A DNA stretch of 64,000 nucleotides from Bacteroidales bacterium F22 (GTDB lineage Bacteria; Bacteroidota; Bacteroidia; Bacteroidales; Bacteroidaceae), in contig CP095414.1 in the NCBI GenBank assembly GCA_029541985.1, positions 1,178,001-1,242,000 on the forward strand. Reading direction: 5' to 3'. Positions 4,274-42,528 of this stretch are shown here, piece by piece; the stretch's first letter is position 1; every line of letters starts with the position of its first letter. The notes under the pieces were generated by a model. That model saw only the letters and a list, made by a program, of their open reading frames with translations. It was not told the origin of the DNA and made no database searches. Both the position numbers and the translations under genes were made by a program.

Positions 4274-4420
4274 CTATTTTTTATTTTTATTTTCTACAAA
4301 TGTTTTCATTTTTCGTTCAATCTTGGGTTCATACCACGAACGAAACCATGAACGGACCCATGGCCAAACGAAAACGACTACAGCAAGACATATTAGCCAT
4401 TCCATTGACATATTTTTCAT
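4274..4420 (-). CDS. Micro-membrane protein, 48 residues
   Basis: ATG at 4420 to TAG at 4274. Residues 6-20 are hydrophobic (EWLICLAVVVFVWPW), followed by a Trp/Arg-rich stretch (RSWFRSWYEPKIERK) and a Lys-rich tail. It begins 34 bases after mscS ends and is followed at once by the 39-residue gene, so the three form one transcript. The aromatic-basic region next to the helix would sit at the membrane interface. Function unknown. It was identified by spacing and coding sense, not by homology. Confidence 0.65.
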   Translation of the reverse strand: MKNMSMEWLICLAVVVFVWPWVRSWFRSWYEPKIERKMKTFVENKNKK

Positions 4421-30865: not shown

Positions 30866-33800
30866 TTACTTCATCAATAATTTATAGGTTTCGATAGCGT
30901 AAGGATTGATTTCTATCTTGTCTACCATCTTAGGATATTCTTCGATGATATTTGTCTGTTGTATCTCATTCACTTTGAAAAATGATTGAAGGGTCACGTG
31001 GGCTGCTTGTCCATCGGCATCATACATCCGTACGATGACATCGTCGCTGTCTTCTGCTTTCTTGATGCATGAGATAATCACATTTTTCTTATCGATACTA
31101 AAGAAGGTAGCAGTCTCACTTAGATTGGCTTGAGTAGATTTATCAGGATTGATGACTACCTTGATAGGGTCATTGAATTGCTTAGCTGTTCTGTCTCCGC
31201 TATCATCACCTGATGCAGTCGAGGTAAGGATATGGCTGAAATGATGGTCACCAGGTTGGGTGTAGTCATTACCTAGGGCATTGCAAGATTGTCGGCTAGC
31301 AAGCAATAGATGCTGCAACAACTGAGCATCACCATCTGTCGTCGGATTAATCCAATCGGCTCCTGCTACAGAAGAACTTAATGTCACTTTGACTTTATCA
31401 TCATGTGCAGCTATCCAGTCCATGATGCCTCTTGGATGGACGTCTTTGCACTCTGGCGTATAGCGCTCGCCAGCACAACCGATTTCACTTTGCCCTACGA
31501 CTACAGTGCCGAAAGGTACTTCATGACTAATCGTTGGTCGATTCATCGCTACTGGATAGGCGGTTCTAAATTCTCTAAATAAGGTGCCATCCCAATTGAG
31601 CAACTGGTCATCAAATTGTATACGTTTCAACTGATTGTAAATGGTCACTCGCTGCTCTACCTTGGCATGCTTAATAGGTTGTATCAAACGGTAGGTCGTA
31701 TACACTTCGCCGGACTCTACTATCTCCCATTTTGCATGGTGGGTGCTTACTTGGTCGAAGTCTTTCATCGTCGGCTGCTGGACATCGCCAAATTCTCCGG
31801 CTCCGTTGCCGACAGATTCCATAGTGAATATTTCTCCTACTTTGAACTGATGGGTATCGAACAAGTTCCTATTGAACTGCTTGTCATATACTTGCTTAAT
31901 CCCTCCATCTGCGAAGGTTACAGTATAAAAATCATTGTCATAGGTAGATGAATAGGTAGTCGAAAGGTTGGCGGTCGATTCTGAGGAATGATTAGCGGTA
32001 GATTCTGGAGTCACATAATAGGTCTTGTATCCAATCGATGGGATATCTTGTGCAACAAATACGACATCTGCATGTTTGATGCTTCCGTCAGCATAAGTGG
32101 TCACACCAGTCAATTGCATCGGAACACGCGTCTTCTTGGAAGATGTCACACGTAAACTTCGTGCCTCACCTTGAGAAAAGTCAAGACTCACGGTCACGGG
32201 GTCGGTTCGCTTCCATGACAGGCTATTGAATAAGACCACAGGTATGCCTTTATTTTTTTTCGTTTTGACACGTCGAGCTATGAAATGAGTGGCCTCATCA
32301 AGAAGTTTCTCACCTATATTCTCGGACTTGACGAAATTAGCTGTAAAGAGGTCGTCTGTGATATTTCCCATATTCCCACCCCAACCATGGTCTGGATATA
32401 TCTTTGCACGCCATCCTTCATCAAATGCATCAAAAGGATAGACCATCTTCTGACGGTCAAGCATAGAAGCGACAGTCATGAATTTCTCTGCTGCGGGAAG
32501 TAACTTAGAAGCTCTTCGACTTGCTTCAAAGGCGTGATGATGGGCTGGGCCATGGATATAAAGCCATACATCAGGACGCTCTCCATAGATGGTGTCGACT
32601 GATGTAGCATATTTTTCCGCTAAAGGAAGATATTCATCTACGGTCATTAATTCCATCTTAGGAAGATATACTGGTCGCTCAGTACCTTGTGCATCGACTA
32701 CTGCGTCTGTCTGATTCCATGCTTGAATAAAGGAAGAATAGTCGACGGCTGGAAGCATGTCTTGACTAGATAACAATGGAGTCTGGGTTTCGTTTCCTTG
32801 GAAAAATTGGCTCCACCAAACAACTTGTTCTGCCCCGTATTTTATTTGGTCAGCCATCCCTTTGGATAAGGACAAGAGATCTGTACCATAGTGACCTGGG
32901 GTGTAGGTGAAGACAGAACTTCCGTCTGGACTTTCCCAACGATACATCCCGCGTTCGTGACGACTAATAACCATATAGTCAACTCCTGCTTTTTTCATGA
33001 TCTGAGGGAATTGCATGGTTCTACCAGGTACATCGACATTCCAATAGACTTTAGCATCATATCCGCCAAAAGTCTTTTTCGTCCACCGTTTACCGAGATA
33101 GAACTCACGAACTAAGTCTTCTCCTGAATACATATCTTCATAAGGACAATTGTATGTGGCACCGACGGAAATGAGTTTACGGTTTAGGAGTTGGGCTATC
33201 TTCTCTTTTGCTTCTGGATGACGAGTGATGAATTCCCTAAGCATCAACCCGTCTTCAATATCAAATCCGTAGTCATCACGGATAAAAGCATCTCGCACAA
33301 TGGGAGTCAAAAGCATGGTATCTCTCATGATTTTACAGACTTCAGGTTGTTCCATCCAAGCAATATCTTGATGACTAGAATTCATGACGGCGATACGTCC
33401 ATTCTGGTATTTACGATCGAAGAAAGGGGTATAGGCTTGGTAGAAGTCAGGACGATAACGAGTAATAAAAGTTCCCTTCCAAGCATCTCCTATTTGACTG
33501 TAAGAGGAATAAAACAAATCCCCTTTGACCTTATTTTCTGAGATACATCCATCCCCGTTTGGGAAAGTGAATGTAGCCTGCTGCTCCCCATAATTGATAG
33601 AAAAAGTGTTCTTCGGAGCAGCTGATACGACGGTAGCTGTGGCCATATCTCCTACTCGTTTGAGCAAAACGACATCGCTTTGCTTACCATCAGAGACGAC
33701 TTGAATTTTGCTTCCTGCTAAATATTCAGGTGCTTTTATTTGTAACGAATGGTCTATTTGAGAAATAACAAAAGCGCTTTCTTTAGCCGTAGCCTCGCTT

Positions 33801-34441
33801 AGCCAAGTCGTAATATTAGATGCCTTGAACAACATGAACCATGAATTTGTTCCTTCTTTGTGTCCATATACTGTTATCGTTGCTTTTTCTCCTTTTGTGA
33901 GCATCGTCACAGGTACATCCAACTCAAATGCACCGATGCCATCCTTATTGCCATCTCTCTTGACGAGAATATATTGAGCATCGGCATGAGGAACGGCAGG
34001 CGAGATTTGCAACTGACCACTACGTGTGGCTGTAAAAGTCAGTAAGGCCTTACCATTGACTTTCACGTCATACGGTTTGAGTAGGTTTAAATCAATATCA
34101 GAATAGAAAAAGAAAGATACGACTTCTCTAGAATAATCCGTAGGTACTTCAGCTGTTTGAAATTCAAACCCCACTTTACCTGTAGATGCTCTAGCAATCA
34201 TCGCTTCGGATATCTCAGAACGCAAAGATGGATAAGTATAGATTCCTCCTCCTGTTTGCTTAGTATAACCATCTAGGTCATCTTGAGAAATCTGATATAA
34301 TCTCTTGTTCACATTCAATTCTCGAATGATAGCCTCTCCATTCAGCTCTTGAGCAGCTAAGCTAAAGGAGCACATCAGAAGAAGAATAAATAGCATACTT
34401 CGCCTAAGAATAGGCATGTTATTGGTCTCTTTTTTCATCAT
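30866..34441 (-). CDS. GH38 alpha-mannosidase, exported
   Basis: A 1191-residue protein. A signal peptide ends near residue 30 (LLLMCSFSLAAQ). An N-terminal beta-rich region of about 330 residues precedes the catalytic domain. The catalytic domain shows SSHQDIAWM (first metal ligands His and Asp) and WNVDVPGR with D470 as the likely nucleophile. YIHGPAHHHAFEASR gives another metal-binding cluster. The C-terminal half is the usual beta-sandwich region (VVLFNSLSWKRTDPV). It is longer than many bacterial GH38s because of the N-terminal addition. The substrate is probably mannose on N-glycans. It is transcribed alone, with a minus-strand box TATTTTTG at 34504-34511. Confidence 0.92.
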   Translation of the reverse strand: MMKKETNNMPILRRSMLFILLLMCSFSLAAQELNGEAIIRELNVNKRLYQISQDDLDGYTKQTGGGIYTYPSLRSEISEAMIARASTGKVGFEFQTAEVPTDYSREVVSFFFYSDIDLNLLKPYDVKVNGKALLTFTATRSGQLQISPAVPHADAQYILVKRDGNKDGIGAFELDVPVTMLTKGEKATITVYGHKEGTNSWFMLFKASNITTWLSEATAKESAFVISQIDHSLQIKAPEYLAGSKIQVVSDGKQSDVVLLKRVGDMATATVVSAAPKNTFSINYGEQQATFTFPNGDGCISENKVKGDLFYSSYSQIGDAWKGTFITRYRPDFYQAYTPFFDRKYQNGRIAVMNSSHQDIAWMEQPEVCKIMRDTMLLTPIVRDAFIRDDYGFDIEDGLMLREFITRHPEAKEKIAQLLNRKLISVGATYNCPYEDMYSGEDLVREFYLGKRWTKKTFGGYDAKVYWNVDVPGRTMQFPQIMKKAGVDYMVISRHERGMYRWESPDGSSVFTYTPGHYGTDLLSLSKGMADQIKYGAEQVVWWSQFFQGNETQTPLLSSQDMLPAVDYSSFIQAWNQTDAVVDAQGTERPVYLPKMELMTVDEYLPLAEKYATSVDTIYGERPDVWLYIHGPAHHHAFEASRRASKLLPAAEKFMTVASMLDRQKMVYPFDAFDEGWRAKIYPDHGWGGNMGNITDDLFTANFVKSENIGEKLLDEATHFIARRVKTKKNKGIPVVLFNSLSWKRTDPVTVSLDFSQGEARSLRVTSSKKTRVPMQLTGVTTYADGSIKHADVVFVAQDIPSIGYKTYYVTPESTANHSSESTANLSTTYSSTYDNDFYTVTFADGGIKQVYDKQFNRNLFDTHQFKVGEIFTMESVGNGAGEFGDVQQPTMKDFDQVSTHHAKWEIVESGEVYTTYRLIQPIKHAKVEQRVTIYNQLKRIQFDDQLLNWDGTLFREFRTAYPVAMNRPTISHEVPFGTVVVGQSEIGCAGERYTPECKDVHPRGIMDWIAAHDDKVKVTLSSSVAGADWINPTTDGDAQLLQHLLLASRQSCNALGNDYTQPGDHHFSHILTSTASGDDSGDRTAKQFNDPIKVVINPDKSTQANLSETATFFSIDKKNVIISCIKKAEDSDDVIVRMYDADGQAAHVTLQSFFKVNEIQQTNIIEEYPKMVDKIEINPYAIETYKLLMK

Positions 34442-34806: not shown

Positions 34807-35304
34807 ATGAAAGAAATCAATAATCCATGGCATAATCATCCCGACCATTTCTGTATCGGTTGCGACCCACGAAATCCCTTTTCCTTAAATATGACTTTTT
34901 TTGAAGACGGAGACGATGTCGTATGCAATTGGACTCCTCGCCCAGAGTTTCAAGGATGGATCAATGTATTGCATGGCGGCATACAAAGTCTCATGATAGA
35001 TGAGACTGCAGCATGGGTAGTCACTCGTTTCGGTCATGCGACAGGAGTCACATCCAAACTAGAATGTCAATACAAGAAAGCAATTAATATCAATGATGGT
35101 CCGATTACTGTTCGTGCCAGAATAAAAAAGCAAATGCGTCGTATATTTATTATAGATGCCGAAATCACAAATAGCCAAGGAGAAGTATGCACCACAGGGC
35201 AAGCAACCTATTACACATACTCCGATAAACAAACTCAGGGACTTGCCAAATTCGGTTATTCAAACGAAAAAGAACAGCATCAAGGTAAGGAAGATGCTCT
35301 ATAG
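34807..35304 (+). CDS. PaaI-type hotdog-fold thioesterase
   Basis: A 165-residue cytoplasmic protein of the hotdog fold, probably hydrolysing an acyl-CoA or related thioester. The signature is VLHGGIQSLMIDETAAW (about 54-70), where HGG and the following acidic residue form the active site. The front HFCIGCDPRNPFSLNM is shared with the short PaaI/YbgC-like proteins. The last 25 residues are polar and probably disordered. It converges with the LytTR regulator and overlaps it by 6 bases at the stop codons. Confidence 0.88.
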   Translation: MKEINNPWHNHPDHFCIGCDPRNPFSLNMTFFEDGDDVVCNWTPRPEFQGWINVLHGGIQSLMIDETAAWVVTRFGHATGVTSKLECQYKKAININDGPITVRARIKKQMRRIFIIDAEITNSQGEVCTTGQATYYTYSDKQTQGLAKFGYSNEKEQHQGKEDAL

Positions 35305-36039
35305 AAATTGCTCCATAAAATCAGTTCTATAATTATCTCCGAGAGGAAGTTTCTCCTCATTTTTCAAGACAATTCTATTGCCTTCAATATATTTGATAGC
35401 AGAATCATTCACTATATATGAGCGGTGTATCCTGTAAAATGGGCCAGCAGAAAGACTCTCTTCTGCTGATTTCATCGTTCCATAGACCATTAGATTTCCA
35501 TTTGACTTAGTTACATATTTCAAATACTCATTTTGAGACTGTACATAGAGAATATCACTAAAATCAATCTTATAGATTTTCTTATTGGACTTGAGCTGTA
35601 CATGGTTTATAGAGGAAGAAGAAGCAGAGTTCGTTGAATCGTTTATCAGAGAAGATGAGCGGCTTATATGAGAGGATTGATTGATACTTATCGCTTTTCT
35701 CACCTTATTTATAGCCTTCAGGAAACGAGAAAATTCAATCGGTTTGAGTAGATAGTCTGCGACTTCTAATTCGAACCCCTCCACAGCATATTCACGATAT
35801 GCCGTCGTGAAAATAACTTGTGGTGAATTATGAAGAGATTTTACGAAGTCCACCCCAGAAATAGTGGGCATATTAATATCAATGAATAAAAGGTCGACTT
35901 CACCTCGTTCTATATATTGCATCGCAGGAAGTGCAGATTTCAACAGAGCAACGACTTCCAAGTCATCCACATTTTGACAATAGTCATTCAACAATAAACG
36001 AGCGGGTTCCTCGTCATCAATAATTATACATCTATACAT
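35299..36039 (-). CDS. LytTR-family response regulator
   Basis: A 246-residue DNA-binding regulator. The receiver domain (1-120) has acidic IIDDEEPA and phospho-acceptor D54 in FIDINMP. A Ser-rich linker (about 127-150) leads to a LytTR DNA-binding domain (FSDILYVQSQNEYLKYVT; FYRIHRSYIVN; LPLGDNYR). LytTR regulators bind pairs of 9-bp direct repeats with about 21-bp periodicity, and such a pair lies at 37149-37181. It overlaps the end of the sensor kinase gene by 8 bases, so the two are co-translated. Confidence 0.93.
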   Translation of the reverse strand: MYRCIIIDDEEPARLLLNDYCQNVDDLEVVALLKSALPAMQYIERGEVDLLFIDINMPTISGVDFVKSLHNSPQVIFTTAYREYAVEGFELEVADYLLKPIEFSRFLKAINKVRKAISINQSSHISRSSSLINDSTNSASSSSINHVQLKSNKKIYKIDFSDILYVQSQNEYLKYVTKSNGNLMVYGTMKSAEESLSAGPFYRIHRSYIVNDSAIKYIEGNRIVLKNEEKLPLGDNYRTDFMEQFL

Positions 36040-37030
36040 CGGTATCTAATTCTAATGTTATTTTATATTCCTTTTCTTCATCACATATATCCAAGACATG
36101 TCTATTGGGATAGAATAAATCCAAGCGGCGCTTGACATTAACAATTCCTATCCCTCCTCTTTTATGTCTCAACCTATGCAGTCCTTTCGAATTGACACAT
36201 TTGAAAAATAAAGTAAATCCTTCTGATGAAATTTCTATATCTATGAATCCATTTTCGATATCATCTAGATTGGCAAACTTAAAGGCATTCTCAATGAACG
36301 GAATCAGTAGCATCGGAGCAAGCATCAATTCAGTATTTACTGAAGAAGCATCAAAATGAATGTTGTTGAGATGACTATCTCGAAGTTTATAGAGAGAGAT
36401 AAAGTTAGTGATATACTTGATCTCATCCTTCATTGAGACGATTCCATCACGTCCACCGTATAATGAATAGTCTAGCATCTTAGAGAGTTCCATGATAGCT
36501 CGTGAACCTTTCGGAGATTGTTTATAAGTAAGAAAATAAATATTATTAAGCGTATTGAAAAGGAAATGAGGATTGGTCTGTTGTACTAAAAAGGTTTTTT
36601 CTGCTTTCACCATCTCCAATTCTTTCAACTCTTGAGTCTTCCTTCGACGCTCCATATAGATGAACAGACTAATAAAAAGAGCCAAAATAATAGGCATGGC
36701 ATGAGTAAAAATCATCTCTAAGTCAAATAAGTGAAAAGGACCAGCTTCTAATCCTTCCTCTACATCGAGATGATAAGGTGTAAAGTCTGTGATGAAATCA
36801 TTTAGCCAGACACCTAACACAATGAAAAGTAAATTCAAAGAACCATAAATCACATACTTCTTGCGTGCATAAAAGAGAGGAAGAATCCATTTCAGGTTGG
36901 AATAGACCACTACTAATTGGACTGACACGATGCCAATAGTGTGCAGTACAGCAGTAGTAGTATCTGCCAATAATTTGAACACTACAAACAAGAAAAAGCT
37001 GTAGATTGTCCAAACGAATAATGTCTTCAT
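36032..37030 (-). CDS. LytS/YehU-type sensor histidine kinase
   Basis: A 332-residue inner-membrane kinase with about four hydrophobic helices in the first 140 residues. The signature VQQTNPHFLFNTLNNIY contains the phosphorylated His of the His_kinase family, and a compact ATPase domain follows (PMLLIPFIENAFKFA; GGIGIVNVKRRLDLFYP). The frame opens at 37042, but a minus-strand promoter box TATATTTG at 37047-37054 puts the transcript start near 37040, so the ATG at 37030 (MKTLFVWT) is preferred. It pairs with the overlapping LytTR regulator. The signal is unknown. Confidence 0.9.
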   Translation of the reverse strand: MKTLFVWTIYSFFLFVVFKLLADTTTAVLHTIGIVSVQLVVVYSNLKWILPLFYARKKYVIYGSLNLLFIVLGVWLNDFITDFTPYHLDVEEGLEAGPFHLFDLEMIFTHAMPIILALFISLFIYMERRRKTQELKELEMVKAEKTFLVQQTNPHFLFNTLNNIYFLTYKQSPKGSRAIMELSKMLDYSLYGGRDGIVSMKDEIKYITNFISLYKLRDSHLNNIHFDASSVNTELMLAPMLLIPFIENAFKFANLDDIENGFIDIEISSEGFTLFFKCVNSKGLHRLRHKRGGIGIVNVKRRLDLFYPNRHVLDICDEEKEYKITLELDTDV

Positions 37031-37046
37031 CTTTTGTCCCATTGTT

Positions 37047-37054
37047 CAAATATA
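37047..37054 (-). promoter_or_regulatory. Probable promoter box of the LytTR two-component pair
   Basis: TATATTTG on the minus strand directly before the kinase gene. It moves the likely start from 37042 to 37030. Confidence 0.5.
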
Positions 37055-37128
37055 ATGATTTGTCTGTATATATCAGATAAGCTATTTCGCTTTTTCCACT
37101 AAACAACCTTTTCTTTCAATCAAAACAG

Positions 37129-37148: not shown

Positions 37149-37181
37149 CCCGTTCGTTGAATTCTCTGTCCCGTTCGTTGA
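37149..37181 (+). promoter_or_regulatory. Candidate LytTR operator (two direct repeats, 21-bp period)
   Basis: The 12-mer CCCGTTCGTTGA occurs at 37149-37160 and 37170-37181, exactly 21 bp apart, so both sit on one face of the helix. The family consensus is [TA][AC][CA]GTTN[AG][TG]. CCCGTTCGT fits 8 of 9 positions. The repeats end 6 bp before a TTTG -33 candidate (37188-37191), which is the usual place for an activator. Confidence 0.7.
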
Positions 37182-37187
37182 TTTTTT

Positions 37188-37218
37188 TTTGAATTAGATG
37201 AAGCGATAGCTATTTTGG
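37188..37218 (+). promoter_or_regulatory. Probable promoter of the phosphoglycerol/DAG kinase operon
   Basis: TTTG at 37188-37191, a 19-base spacer, and TATTTTGG at 37211-37218 (one mismatch to TAnnTTTG). The imperfect -7 box suits a promoter that needs an activator. Start of translation is at 37249. Confidence 0.55.
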
Positions 37219-37248: not shown

Positions 37249-39219
37249 ATGACCAAAAAATATTCAAGTAAAAGATTCAGCCTTCTAAAGAGCTTCATTC
37301 TCACATTTCTCCTTTTCTCCATTGTCCTAAGAATTGTCTTTTTTCTATGGACGATTCATGAGTCCGATACATCGCTATTTGCATGGTCCAAAACCCTGTT
37401 GATTGGAACATTTTATGATATAGGCACGATTTCCTTCTTTGCACTACCCTATGCGCTCTATTTAGGTTTACTCCCCAACAGGTTATCCGGATCGATAGCT
37501 GATAAAGCAATCACTTACTTTGCCCTGACACTAGGACTATTGATTTTCCTCTTTTCATTCTTTGCAGAGATTACTTTCTGGAATGAATTTCAACGACGGT
37601 TTAATTTTATAGCAGTAGATTATTTAATCTATACCTACGAAGTCGTCAAAAATATCAACGAATCGTATCCCATCCCTTTATTGGTAGGTAGCATCGTCAT
37701 CCTGACTACTATCATTCTATTGACATACAAGAAATTACAGGTTTTTAAGTCAACATTTAGCAATAAAGCAACACTGCTTCAAAAAGGAATAGTCAGTATT
37801 TCAGTCATCATTATCGCATCATTCTACATTTTATTCATTAAAAATGACGGAGCGGAATGGAGTAAGAACAGGTACAACAATGAACTCTCCAAAGCAGGAA
37901 TATATAGTTTTTTCAATGCATTCAGAAGCAATGAATTGGATTTCAAAACTTTTTATAAGACACGAAAAGACATAGATGCTTTTAATGTAGTTAGAAGTCA
38001 TCTTCCAGCAGATTCACCCTATCTAGGAGATTCGCATTCTATATTACGTAGAATTATCAACGACGACAGCTTGAAAATAAGACCCAATGTCATTTTCATC
38101 TGTGTAGAGAGTTTGAGCGCCTCATTCTTACAGACTTTCGGACATAAAGAGAACATCACACCTACCTTAGATTCACTAGCCAATAACAGTGTCCTATTCA
38201 CCAATTTTTATGCTACAGGTACTCGCACTGTACGAGGCATGGAAGCCATCACACTATCTATCCCTCCTACTCCAGGGCGAAGCATCGTCAAGCGAGTACA
38301 CAATCAGCAGTTATACACCATCGGTGAAGTATTTAAACAGCAAGGCTATAGACGCAATTTCTTCTATGGAGGCGATGGTTACTTCGATAACATGAACAGC
38401 TACTTCGGTGGAAATGGATTCGACATCGTAGATAGAGGACGTCGATTTCTGATAGATACCCATACGACAAGCAAACGAACCAACATAACAGATAGTGAAG
38501 TGACCTTTGAAAACGCATGGGGAGTATGCGATGAAGATATATTCAATAAGGTTCTCAGCGAGGGAGACAAAGAAGCTCAATCTGGCAAAGCCTTTTTTGA
38601 TTTCGTGATGACTACATCAAACCATAGGCCCTATACATATCCTGATAATAAGATAGATATCCCATCAGGTACAGGACGAAGTGGAGGCGTAAAATATACC
38701 GACTTGGCCTTCAAAGAATTCTTTGCACAAGTCAAGAAAAAATCATGGTACAAAAATACGGTATTCGTCATCATGGCGGACCATTGTGCTAGCAGTGCTG
38801 GCAAATGGGAACTTGACATCATGAACTATCATATTCCAGCCATGGTAATCAATGCACCTAATATAAGTAACCAACGCATAGATAAAGTCTGTTCACAAAT
38901 AGACCTCTTCCCTACTCTTTTTGGCCTATTCAATTGGAGTTATACAAGTAATTTCTTTGGACAAAATATTTTGAAGATGAAACCTACAGAGGAACGAGCT
39001 TTCGTGGCAAATTACCGAAAGTTAGGAATGCTAAAGAAAAATAAGGTAGTGATACTAGACGACCACAAGGGAGCCTCATCCTATCAATGGAATCCTCAGA
39101 CAAATGAGTTAAAAGCCATAACACAAGACACCGAATTAACTGATGAGACCATCTCTTGGTACCAGGTAGCTGATTACTTATATCACTCTGGTGGTCTCTC
39201 TATACACGCCAAGAAATGA
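37249..39219 (+). CDS. LtaS/MdoB-like phosphoglycerol transferase
   Basis: A 656-residue inner-membrane enzyme. About five helices lie in residues 10-200. A periplasmic sulfatase-fold domain runs from about 280, with VIFICVESLSASFLQTF (metal Glu), GTRTVRGMEAI (nucleophile Thr) and IMADHCASS (late metal site). In LtaS/MdoB relatives phosphoglycerol is taken from phosphatidylglycerol, leaving diacylglycerol. The next gene, overlapping by ATGA, is a diacylglycerol kinase, which fits such a by-product. The acceptor in a Gram-negative cell would be a periplasmic glucan, lipid A or a glycolipid. It is probably controlled by the divergent LytTR pair. Confidence 0.88.
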   Translation: MTKKYSSKRFSLLKSFILTFLLFSIVLRIVFFLWTIHESDTSLFAWSKTLLIGTFYDIGTISFFALPYALYLGLLPNRLSGSIADKAITYFALTLGLLIFLFSFFAEITFWNEFQRRFNFIAVDYLIYTYEVVKNINESYPIPLLVGSIVILTTIILLTYKKLQVFKSTFSNKATLLQKGIVSISVIIIASFYILFIKNDGAEWSKNRYNNELSKAGIYSFFNAFRSNELDFKTFYKTRKDIDAFNVVRSHLPADSPYLGDSHSILRRIINDDSLKIRPNVIFICVESLSASFLQTFGHKENITPTLDSLANNSVLFTNFYATGTRTVRGMEAITLSIPPTPGRSIVKRVHNQQLYTIGEVFKQQGYRRNFFYGGDGYFDNMNSYFGGNGFDIVDRGRRFLIDTHTTSKRTNITDSEVTFENAWGVCDEDIFNKVLSEGDKEAQSGKAFFDFVMTTSNHRPYTYPDNKIDIPSGTGRSGGVKYTDLAFKEFFAQVKKKSWYKNTVFVIMADHCASSAGKWELDIMNYHIPAMVINAPNISNQRIDKVCSQIDLFPTLFGLFNWSYTSNFFGQNILKMKPTEERAFVANYRKLGMLKKNKVVILDDHKGASSYQWNPQTNELKAITQDTELTDETISWYQVADYLYHSGGLSIHAKK

Positions 39220-40115
39220 AGAAAATACATTTTATAGTCAATCCAGTATCAGGAAACGGGAAACAGAAATTTGTCAAGGAATCTCTGAGTCCATTTTTCG
39301 AAGAACTTCATTATGAGTTGGTTATCAAGCAGACACAATATGCTGGACATGCGACCTCCCTCACACTAGCATCTATTGCAGAAGAAGCCGATATTATTGT
39401 CGCCTGTGGAGGAGATGGAACAATCAATGAAGTCGCTTCGTGCTTAGTCAATAAGAAGATTCCATTAGGAATCATTCCTATGGGTTCTGGTAATGGGCTA
39501 GCTTCAAATCTAGCCATCTCTAAGAATGTAAGAAAAGCATTGAGAACCATCAAGGAAGGGCTGACAACAAAAATAGATGTAGGACAAATCAATAAGCATT
39601 TCTTCTTCAGCAATACCGGTTTAGGATTTGATGCAGAGGTCGTATCGAACTACGAACAAATGGAGAAAAGACAACTGACTGCCTATTTGAGTGCCGTCAT
39701 CAAATCATTTAATCACTATCGAGGTTATAAGAGCGTGGAGATAGTCATAGAAAACAAGCGACGCGTCATCCGCCCATTTATGGTTTTCGTGTCCAATTCT
39801 AATGAGATGGGATACAAGATAAGCCTCACACCCACAGCTCAGCTAAATGATGGATTGCTAGACGTAGTCATAATACCTCAAATAACGAAGCTACGAATCC
39901 TATACTTAGGGCTATTGCTGCTGCTAAATCGAACAGAGAACATCCAGTGGATAAAGAAGATAAAGACAGATGCTCTCGTGCTACACGAGAAAAACCGTCA
40001 CCACCTTTCCATACAAAAAGACGGTGAACGATTTAAGGCTGAAAACAAGACACTAAACATATCCCTGCTTACAAAATCTCTGAATGTGATTGTTCCCCGT
40101 GTCAAAGGAGTATAA
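39216..40115 (+). CDS. Diacylglycerol kinase-family lipid kinase
   Basis: A 299-residue soluble or membrane-attached kinase. The nucleotide-binding front is IHFIVNPVSGNGK (about 4-16). The DAGK_cat signature VACGGDGTINEVA is at about 62-74, with GIIPMGSGNGLA at about 86-97. The second domain shows NTGLGFDAEVV. The family phosphorylates diacylglycerol or related lipids to phosphatidic acid, recycling it to phospholipid. It starts within the stop of the phosphoglycerol transferase (ATGA), so expression is coupled. No terminator was seen before the B12 region 130 bp later. Confidence 0.9.
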   Translation: MKKIHFIVNPVSGNGKQKFVKESLSPFFEELHYELVIKQTQYAGHATSLTLASIAEEADIIVACGGDGTINEVASCLVNKKIPLGIIPMGSGNGLASNLAISKNVRKALRTIKEGLTTKIDVGQINKHFFFSNTGLGFDAEVVSNYEQMEKRQLTAYLSAVIKSFNHYRGYKSVEIVIENKRRVIRPFMVFVSNSNEMGYKISLTPTAQLNDGLLDVVIIPQITKLRILYLGLLLLLNRTENIQWIKKIKTDALVLHEKNRHHLSIQKDGERFKAENKTLNISLLTKSLNVIVPRVKGV

Positions 40116-40246: not shown

Positions 40247-40277
40247 TTTGAATAAAAGAAAAATAGTCCTACTTTTG
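40247..40277 (+). promoter_or_regulatory. Consensus promoter of the B12 uptake operon
   Basis: TTTG at 40247-40250, a 19-base spacer, and TACTTTTG at 40270-40277: an almost ideal Bacteroidota promoter. It starts the riboswitch leader. Confidence 0.8.
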
Positions 40278-40280
40278 TCA

Positions 40281-40425
40281 TGTTTTGAAAGGGAATGAGG
40301 TGAAACTCCTCGACGGTCCCGCCGCTGTAAGCTTCACAAAACTGATGACGATCTTTAGAGCCACTGCATGAGAGATGTGGGAAGGCAGTCATTAGCGAAG
40401 TAAGTCAGAAAACCTACAAAGCATA
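40281..40425 (+). ncRNA. Cobalamin (B12) riboswitch
   Basis: The leader carries the conserved core in order: GGGAATGAGGTGAAACTCC, then ACGGTCCCGCCGCTGTAA (B12 box region), then GCCACTG, a TGGGAAGGC block and GTCAGAAAACCTAC. These are the standard segments of the adenosylcobalamin-type riboswitch. It lies directly between the promoter and btuB and should shut down the five-gene uptake operon when B12 is abundant. Confidence 0.95.
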
Positions 40426-40461
40426 AACGATCATAATACACGCTTGCGAGGCACAAGCTTT

Positions 40462-42528
40462 ATGAATATGTATCACAAAACGATTTCGCTACACTATCTA
40501 CCTACACGTAGATTCATTGTTATTGGCTTACTATTAGCCTATTCATGTTGGGGGATTCTCTCAGCACAGACTGTCGTGCGTCAAGACAGCCTCTACCAAG
40601 CAGATACCCTATTCATCGAAAAAGACCTCGAAAATGTAGAAGTCAACGCTTTCCACAAACCGATTCAAAGCAAAGCAGGCATTCCTATTCAATCAGTAGA
40701 TGCAGAGGAGTTAACTACTCGAGGGATACAAAATGTAGCAGATGCCGTAAAGCAATTTTCAGGAACCACAGTAAGAGATTATGGAGGTATCGGTGGCATG
40801 AAAACCGTGTCAGTTCATAGCCTTGGAGCCCATCATACTGCAGTAGCATACGATGGCATAGCTATCAGTAACATCCAAGCCGGACAAATAGATATCGGAC
40901 ACTTCTCTTTAGACAATATCAGTGTACTATCCCTCGCCGTAGGACAAGAAGAAAACCTGATGCAATCTGCAAGGCTACTCGCTTCAGGTGCAGTACTAAA
41001 TCTTCAGACAGCGACTCCAAGAGTGAGTCAGACCTCCCCATATACTTTATCATCCAAACTCAAGATAGGTAGTTTCGGTGAGATAAATCCCGCTTTCCAT
41101 TACGGTCAATGGCTCAGTCAGAAGACCACCCTATCAGCAGATGTAGATTGGATGCGCGCTGATGGACAGTATCCTTTTACTATCCAAAACTACAAAACTC
41201 TAGAACATCATAAACGACAAAATTCAGATGTCGAACAAGCTCATATAGAACTGAACCTTCGGAGTGAACTCACACCAACGAGTGAATTGGAAATAAAGAG
41301 CTATTACTATCGTTCCGAACGCGGACTACCAGGCAGCGTCATCCTCTATACCGATGACAATAACGAACGCCTATGGGATGAAATGTTCTTCACCCAAGCC
41401 AAATACAATTGGCAACTAGCAGATAAATGGAAAGGACAGTTGGCTGCTAAATACAGTCGGAGTTATAGCAAATATCACGATGAAGACGTGACCTATGCCG
41501 ATGGGGAAGTGACCGATATCAACCGCCAACAAGAATATTATATCCAAGGGACCTTTGCCTATCAACCGACCGATTATCTAGCCATCAGTTGGGCCAATGA
41601 TGGGGTCATCAACCATCTAAACAACAACCTACCCAATGGAGTAAAACCCACCCGCTATACTTGGCTTTCGGCACTCACTGCGAAACTAGACTGGAAGCAG
41701 CTCGTATTTAACGGTTCACTGCTCAGTACTTATACCACCACTCACGTATCCACAGGAGAAAAGCCAGCAGATAGGTCTAAGATTATTCCTACCTTCTCCG
41801 TACGTTATACCCCCATACAAGACTATCCTTGGAATTTGAGAATGATGGCCAAAAGAAGTTACCGGATCCCATCATTCAATGATTTATACTACGAACGTAT
41901 CGGAAACAAAGACTTAAATCCTGAAATAGCGGATGAATATAGCCTAGGAAGCAGTTGGACTCTGACACGAGTACCCTTCTTCGATTATATCAGATTACAT
42001 GTCGATGGATTTTACAATGAGATAGATGATAAGTTAGTCGCCATGCCCTCTACCTATGTATGGAAGATGGTTAATTACGGGCAAGTGAGAGTCAAAGGAG
42101 TAGACCTTAGCAGTGAAGCAGTCATCCCTCTAGGAAACCATTATTCATTGTTCTTATCAGGGAATTACACCTATCAAGAAGCCCTCGATATGACAGATAA
42201 TCAATCGAAAAGTTACAAGAATCAACTCCCTTATACCCCTAAAAATACGGGGACAGTATCTAGCCTCATCCATACTCCATGGGCAGACTTAAACTACACC
42301 CTGATAAGTGTCGGCAAACGCTACTCATCAAAACAGAACCTATCCCAATATAGGATGGATGCTTATAAAGAGCACACCCTAACCTGCACCAAAGAATGGT
42401 CATGGGGAAGATTCCCAATCAAGACGAGTCTCTCGTGTTTGAATTTTACAGACAAACAGTACCAAGTTATTTCTTACTATCCGATGCCCGGAAGGACATG
42501 GAAAGTAACAATCAAGATAGACTTATAA
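40462..42528 (+). CDS. btuB: TonB-dependent vitamin B12 receptor
   Basis: A 688-residue outer-membrane receptor that imports cobalamin using TonB energy. A signal peptide spans about 18-36 (FIVIGLLLAYSCWGILSAQ). The plug domain (about 65-190) shows GIQNVADAVKQFSGTTVRDYGG and VAYDGIAISNIQAGQIDIG. A beta-barrel follows and ends in aromatic strands (YQVISYYPMPGRTWKVTIKIDL). The frame opens with a TTG at 40444, and the ATG at 40462 is taken as the start. The upstream riboswitch fixes the substrate as B12. Confidence 0.95.
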   Translation: MNMYHKTISLHYLPTRRFIVIGLLLAYSCWGILSAQTVVRQDSLYQADTLFIEKDLENVEVNAFHKPIQSKAGIPIQSVDAEELTTRGIQNVADAVKQFSGTTVRDYGGIGGMKTVSVHSLGAHHTAVAYDGIAISNIQAGQIDIGHFSLDNISVLSLAVGQEENLMQSARLLASGAVLNLQTATPRVSQTSPYTLSSKLKIGSFGEINPAFHYGQWLSQKTTLSADVDWMRADGQYPFTIQNYKTLEHHKRQNSDVEQAHIELNLRSELTPTSELEIKSYYYRSERGLPGSVILYTDDNNERLWDEMFFTQAKYNWQLADKWKGQLAAKYSRSYSKYHDEDVTYADGEVTDINRQQEYYIQGTFAYQPTDYLAISWANDGVINHLNNNLPNGVKPTRYTWLSALTAKLDWKQLVFNGSLLSTYTTTHVSTGEKPADRSKIIPTFSVRYTPIQDYPWNLRMMAKRSYRIPSFNDLYYERIGNKDLNPEIADEYSLGSSWTLTRVPFFDYIRLHVDGFYNEIDDKLVAMPSTYVWKMVNYGQVRVKGVDLSSEAVIPLGNHYSLFLSGNYTYQEALDMTDNQSKSYKNQLPYTPKNTGTVSSLIHTPWADLNYTLISVGKRYSSKQNLSQYRMDAYKEHTLTCTKEWSWGRFPIKTSLSCLNFTDKQYQVISYYPMPGRTWKVTIKIDL

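Follow-up and report, generated by a model that had tools for sequence, protein, structure and literature searches.

In all probability (about 0.88), the repeat pair at 37149-37181 serves as operator for the adjacent LytTR response regulator (35299-36039), which would act through it to activate a divergent operon for a membrane sulfatase and a lipid kinase. Four lines of sequence evidence support the operator reading. A motif learned with this genome's own systems held out ranks the site first in the 64-kb window (the whole stretch of DNA analyzed), the 21-bp period of the repeats is specific to regions upstream of operons encoding a histidine kinase and a LytTR regulator (HK-LytTR operons), a -7 element stands at the distance that is modal in the family, and a residue in the recognition loop of the regulator predicts the half-site letters.

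Genomic context of the repeat pair

The sequence-only reading had placed the repeats between a LytTR two-component pair on the minus strand and a divergent operon on the plus strand, and Pfam domains bear out this gene context (Table 1). As befits a LytTR response regulator, the protein carries a receiver and a LytTR domain, both above curated cut-offs, and is encoded next to a histidine kinase of the PF06580 type. It scored below the NCBIfam cut-offs for the BtsR and LytR equivalogs (134.3 bits vs 246 and 109.2 vs 375, respectively), and the locus was ruled out as an LRS (LytTR Regulatory System), the partner of the regulator being a histidine kinase and not a membrane inhibitor. Similarly, the sulfatase fell below the cut-offs for the LtaS and phosphoglycerol transferase I equivalogs (52.1 vs 970 and 68.9 vs 572). 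The solved protein nearest to it by sequence is 3lxq (function not named; E = 7e-66), with lipoteichoic acid synthases next. It is reasonable to infer that the sulfatase carries out a phosphoglycerol transfer releasing diacylglycerol, which the lipid kinase recycles. Relatives of the sulfatase in Flavobacteriaceae are 56-62% identical and mostly retain the lipid kinase, without an adjacent kinase-LytTR pair. We looked for other genomes with the same kinase-regulator pair beside the sulfatase and found none. Direct phylogenetic footprinting of this intergenic region was therefore impossible, and the regions upstream of other HK-LytTR operons were examined instead. Elsewhere in the window, a cobalamin riboswitch (Rfam RF00174, 87 bits) is located at 40258-40435 on the plus strand, 5' of a TonB-dependent-receptor-like gene (40444-42528), and the minus strand encodes a large GH38-type alpha-mannosidase-like protein at 30866-34441 (PF01074 in the part tested).

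Table 1. Features of the intergenic region and of the genes on either side of it (window positions).
Feature	Position	Strand	Remarks
Response regulator with LytTR domain	35299..36039	-	Response_reg PF00072, 70.6 bits; LytTR PF04397, 79.4 bits; E171 in predicted recognition loop
Sensor histidine kinase	36032..37042	-	His_kinase PF06580, 67.9 bits
TATATTTG, -7 element of the HK-RR operon	37047..37054	-	Perfect; 4 nt before annotated ATG
TTTAGTGGA (or GTTTAGTGG at period 20), degenerate partner half-site	37095..37103	-	Ambiguous register, period 20 or 21
TTTGATTGA, strong half-site directed towards the kinase gene	37116..37124	-	Scores highest of the single half-sites in the intergenic region
Distal repeat CCCGTTCGTTGA	37149..37160	+	Core half-site GTTCGTTGA at 37152-37160
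Proximal repeat CCCGTTCGTTGA	37170..37181	+	Core half-site GTTCGTTGA at 37173-37181
TTTG, candidate -33 element of the sulfatase promoter	37188..37191	+	Not strongly conserved among family sites
TATTTTGG, candidate -7 element	37211..37218	+	5/6 fixed letters of TAnnTTTG; 29 bp after proximal half-site
Membrane sulfatase-fold protein, LtaS/OpgB-like, putative phosphoglycerol transferase; proposed target	37249..39219	+	Superfamily PF00884
YegS/DAGK-family lipid kinase, proposed target	39216..40115	+	4-bp overlap with sulfatase gene

The two repeats had been described from the letters as identical copies with a 21-bp period, ending 6 bp before a TTTG that is followed by N19 and TATTTTGG. This description is exact: both 12-mers read CCCGTTCGTTGA, their starts lie 21 bp apart, and the promoter elements stand where they were placed. 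The agreement of CCCGTTCGT with the classical LytTR consensus at 8 of 9 positions also holds. With 9-nt cores GTTCGTTGA, a 12-nt spacer and a period of 21, the pair has the repeat geometry of a LytTR operator. When the 206-bp intergenic region was dinucleotide-shuffled 20,000 times, an exact four-letter 12-mer pair at a period of 20-23 appeared in only 2 of the shuffles, and within the 64-kb window no other pair matches at 12/12 positions at periods 18-25. A genome search for the paired repeats had been put forward as a means to define the regulon. The exact CCCGTTCGTTGA pair proved to occur once in the whole 2.89-Mb genome, and no larger regulon was found.

A motif and a promoter distance recurring among HK-LytTR operons

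In a survey of direct repeats upstream of 117 distinct HK-LytTR operons, both systems of this genome included, 10-mer repeats showed a sharp peak at period 21 (14 loci, this one among them), against 0-5 loci at each of the other periods from 11 to 35. A tied two-block EM was then run de novo on 112 Bacteroidales HK-LytTR operons from which the two systems of this genome were excluded. It likewise favored period 21 (log-likelihood of 175.7 vs 98.7-123.1 at other periods between 16 and 27) and returned a half-site that, read towards the promoter, is roughly (G/T)TTnRTnGA. When the resulting matrix was scanned over the window, the repeats ranked first with a score of 14.2, reached by none of 3000 shuffles of the intergenic region. 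For validation, the matrix was frozen and applied to 69 independent HK-LytTR loci from the wider phylum, where the motif was found in 16 (shuffle mean 0.35, maximum 2); this set also peaks at period 21, with 16 loci and 6 for the next highest period. Upstream of Flavobacteriaceae sulfatases without an adjacent two-component pair, used as a negative control, frozen-motif pairs were found in 0 of 79 cases. Overall, the repeats carry the motif common to sites beside LytTR regulators, and a confident pair is present in only a minority of HK-LytTR operons.

The position of the promoter relative to the repeats is just as regular. An element was considered near consensus when it had at least 5 of the 6 fixed letters of TAnnTTTG, and its offset was counted from the 35-bp site frame. 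Among 56 pooled sites, such a -7 element occurs at offset 24 in 32; the median for the remaining offsets is 1. TATTTTGG, which deviates from the consensus at one letter, lies at exactly offset 24, so that the repeats stand at the set distance from a downstream promoter that characterizes these operators. Lesser peaks were seen at offsets 17, 25 and 45, the last of which (24 + 21) suggests operators with three tandem half-sites in which the distal pair was scored. A generic sigma-70 scan gave fewer matches than shuffled sequences and is uninformative for Bacteroidota. The site position suggests activation rather than repression and, together with the poorly conserved -33 element, would make the sulfatase promoter activator-dependent, as the sequence-only reading had proposed.

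The composite pattern (pair, N29 and TAnnTTTG) with at most one mismatch occurs in only two places in the 2.89 Mb, both beside HK-LytTR pairs. We examined nine matches with two mismatches, of which only one (L253, described below) looks meaningful. At three mismatches the genome-wide count of 122 is at the level of the control (144), and hence gives no sign of a larger regulon.

Apart from the main pair, the intergenic region contains a weaker pair in the opposite orientation (about 37095-37124), absent from the earlier description. With the period set to 21, this pair takes second place (score 11.5) when the held-out matrix is scanned over the window. Its distance to TATATTTG is 35 bp, 11 above the modal 24 and thus atypical, and autoregulation of the kinase-regulator operon through this pair is a plausible, tentative proposal. 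The main pair itself might be a true LytTR operator that acts mainly on the kinase-regulator operon, by autoregulation or repression, and whose proximity to the sulfatase promoter is incidental. Such a role would agree with its location between two divergent promoters and with the orientation of the family, in which 38 of the 56 sites face the kinase gene. However, both the orientation of its half-sites and the offset of exactly 24 argue for the sulfatase promoter, and it is a separate minus-strand pair that faces the kinase; we regard this alternative as unlikely.

A second LytTR system and a candidate residue-letter code

Five LytTR domains are encoded in the genome. The second classical HK-LytTR pair, at 2.387 Mb, is accompanied by the pair TTCTGTAGA/GTTCGTAGA with TATCTTTG at exactly offset 24, before a divergent gene encoding an Lcl_C domain. 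This locus (L150, genome 2384500-2391500) harbors opposed TAGA-type pairs at 4355-4392 and 4290-4324, both between the kinase and the divergent gene. For the plus-strand pair, the distance to the -7 element is exactly the modal one. The kinase-facing pair (4290-4324) lies far from its own -7 element, and any autoregulation there is tentative. At L253 (genome 1656688-1656753), a two-mismatch TAGA-type pair upstream of another gene for an Lcl_C domain is followed by TATTTTTA at the modal distance; by its sequence, this site is a likely candidate for a second target of the genome's other LytTR regulator.

To pick a candidate specificity residue, the residues of the regulators were compared with the letters of their half-sites by mutual information. 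The position matching E171 of the window regulator co-varies with half-site position 7. In the independent set, for which positions 7 and 8 of the half-site were masked during site location, T was present at position 7 in 0 of 46 half-sites with D and in 9 of 14 with E. Counted by locus, T occupies position 7 in at least one half at 17 of the 21 loci with E and at 1 of the 17 with D (Fisher p = 3e-6), these being representatives less than 60% identical drawn from all loci except those of this genome, with training loci included and kinship reduced, not removed; the same two positions were masked in locating these sites. The window obeys the rule, pairing E171 with half-sites GTTCGTTGA that have T at position 7 and G at position 8. 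In AgrA, the loop that aligns with residue 171 enters the DNA groove, and the histidine H169 is a base contact. Alignment to AgrA (PDB 3bs1) places E171 in this loop, two positions before the histidine.

The code is incomplete, since E is likewise found at this position in the other classical regulator of the genome, which nevertheless goes with TAGA-type sites. It also has sub-classes, and other residues are needed to explain half-sites that end in ATA or CTA rather than TGA/CGA, as observed, in closely related loci, for some regulators with D at the recognition position (L364, L354 and L300, and L292, L299, L301, L343 and L350). A further candidate, linking residue 150 to position 8, was strong in training and failed validation (K accompanied T and G at about equal frequency). 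On balance, we favor the view that the classical LytTR regulators of Bacteroidota share a grammar of approximately (G/T)TTnRTnGA-N12-(G/T)TTnRTnGA-N29-TAnnTTTG, along with a residue-171 code that helps to set positions 7-8 (E, mostly TG; D, C/A then G/T; A, TC). If both are true, targets could be assigned to regulators from sequence alone, and under the code an E171D substitution would move the preference from GTTCGTTGA to GTTCGTCGA.

With five LytTR domains in the genome, the repeats might be bound by a different regulator, either another LytTR protein or an unrelated factor, instead of the adjacent one. The half-sites associated with the other classical regulator, however, are of the TAGA type, both at its own locus and at the second Lcl_C gene, and residue 171 of the adjacent regulator suits a TGA half-site, although the residue alone cannot separate the two regulators because both have E. 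We consider this very unlikely. Short two-copy repeats can arise by chance, but a functionless duplication is scarcely credible in view of the shuffling results, the first rank in the held-out scan, the fixed promoter distance and the genome-wide uniqueness of the composite pattern.

Proposed mechanism and comparison with known systems

The repeats, their spacing, the promoter position, the family-wide motif and the covariation of residue and letter are directly legible in the sequences; binding, activation, its dependence on phosphorylation, the enzymatic roles and the signal are inferred. For the operator of the adjacent regulator, we propose that the kinase would phosphorylate the LytTR regulator, two molecules of which would occupy the two GTTCGTTGA half-sites, which lie two helical turns (21 bp) apart and so on the same face of the DNA. 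The bound regulator would then recruit or stabilize RNA polymerase at the TTTG-N19-TATTTTGG promoter and switch on the sulfatase, a putative phosphoglycerol transferase, together with the lipid kinase, which would recycle diacylglycerol released by the sulfatase. The weaker opposite-facing pair may autoregulate the kinase-regulator operon.

The Bacteroidota genomes searched contain many LytTR regulators. The operator itself is very probably of an ordinary kind, and its first interpretation correct. It offers a concrete regulator-target pair, in which a phosphoglycerol-transferase-like/lipid-kinase operon is putatively placed under a dedicated sensor. Interest is raised by an operator layout that recurs beside such regulators across Bacteroidota and by the matching candidate amino-acid/DNA-letter code, both of which can be checked in many genomes.

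Among known systems, AgrA differs in that E171 aligns two positions before its base-contacting histidine. The DNA-binding domains of AgrA (PDB 3bs1) and of the window regulator are homologous. A LytTR operator consists of two direct repeats of 9-11 nt with 11-13 nt between them, as in YpdB/yhjX of E. coli (PMC4847170). As in that system, direct repeats here precede the promoter that drives a dedicated target, with 9-nt half-sites and 12 nt between them. In contrast, the half-site is GTTCGTTGA here and GGCATTTCAT there, and the promoter has Bacteroidota -33/-7 elements instead of sigma-70 hexamers. Our literature search for Bacteroidota LytTR operators, which most subscription papers lay outside, found no operator for the classical two-component members and only the repeats of LRS-like Bacteroides operons. 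These repeats precede TGTA/TGTG-N19-TATCTTTG, and autoactivation has been proposed for them (PMC6193735, Table 3). Both arrangements place direct repeats immediately upstream of a promoter, but the LRS repeats are 11 bp long with a period of 22, compared with 21 here, and the partner of the LRS regulator is a membrane protein, whereas the regulator described here is paired with a histidine kinase in a classical two-component system.
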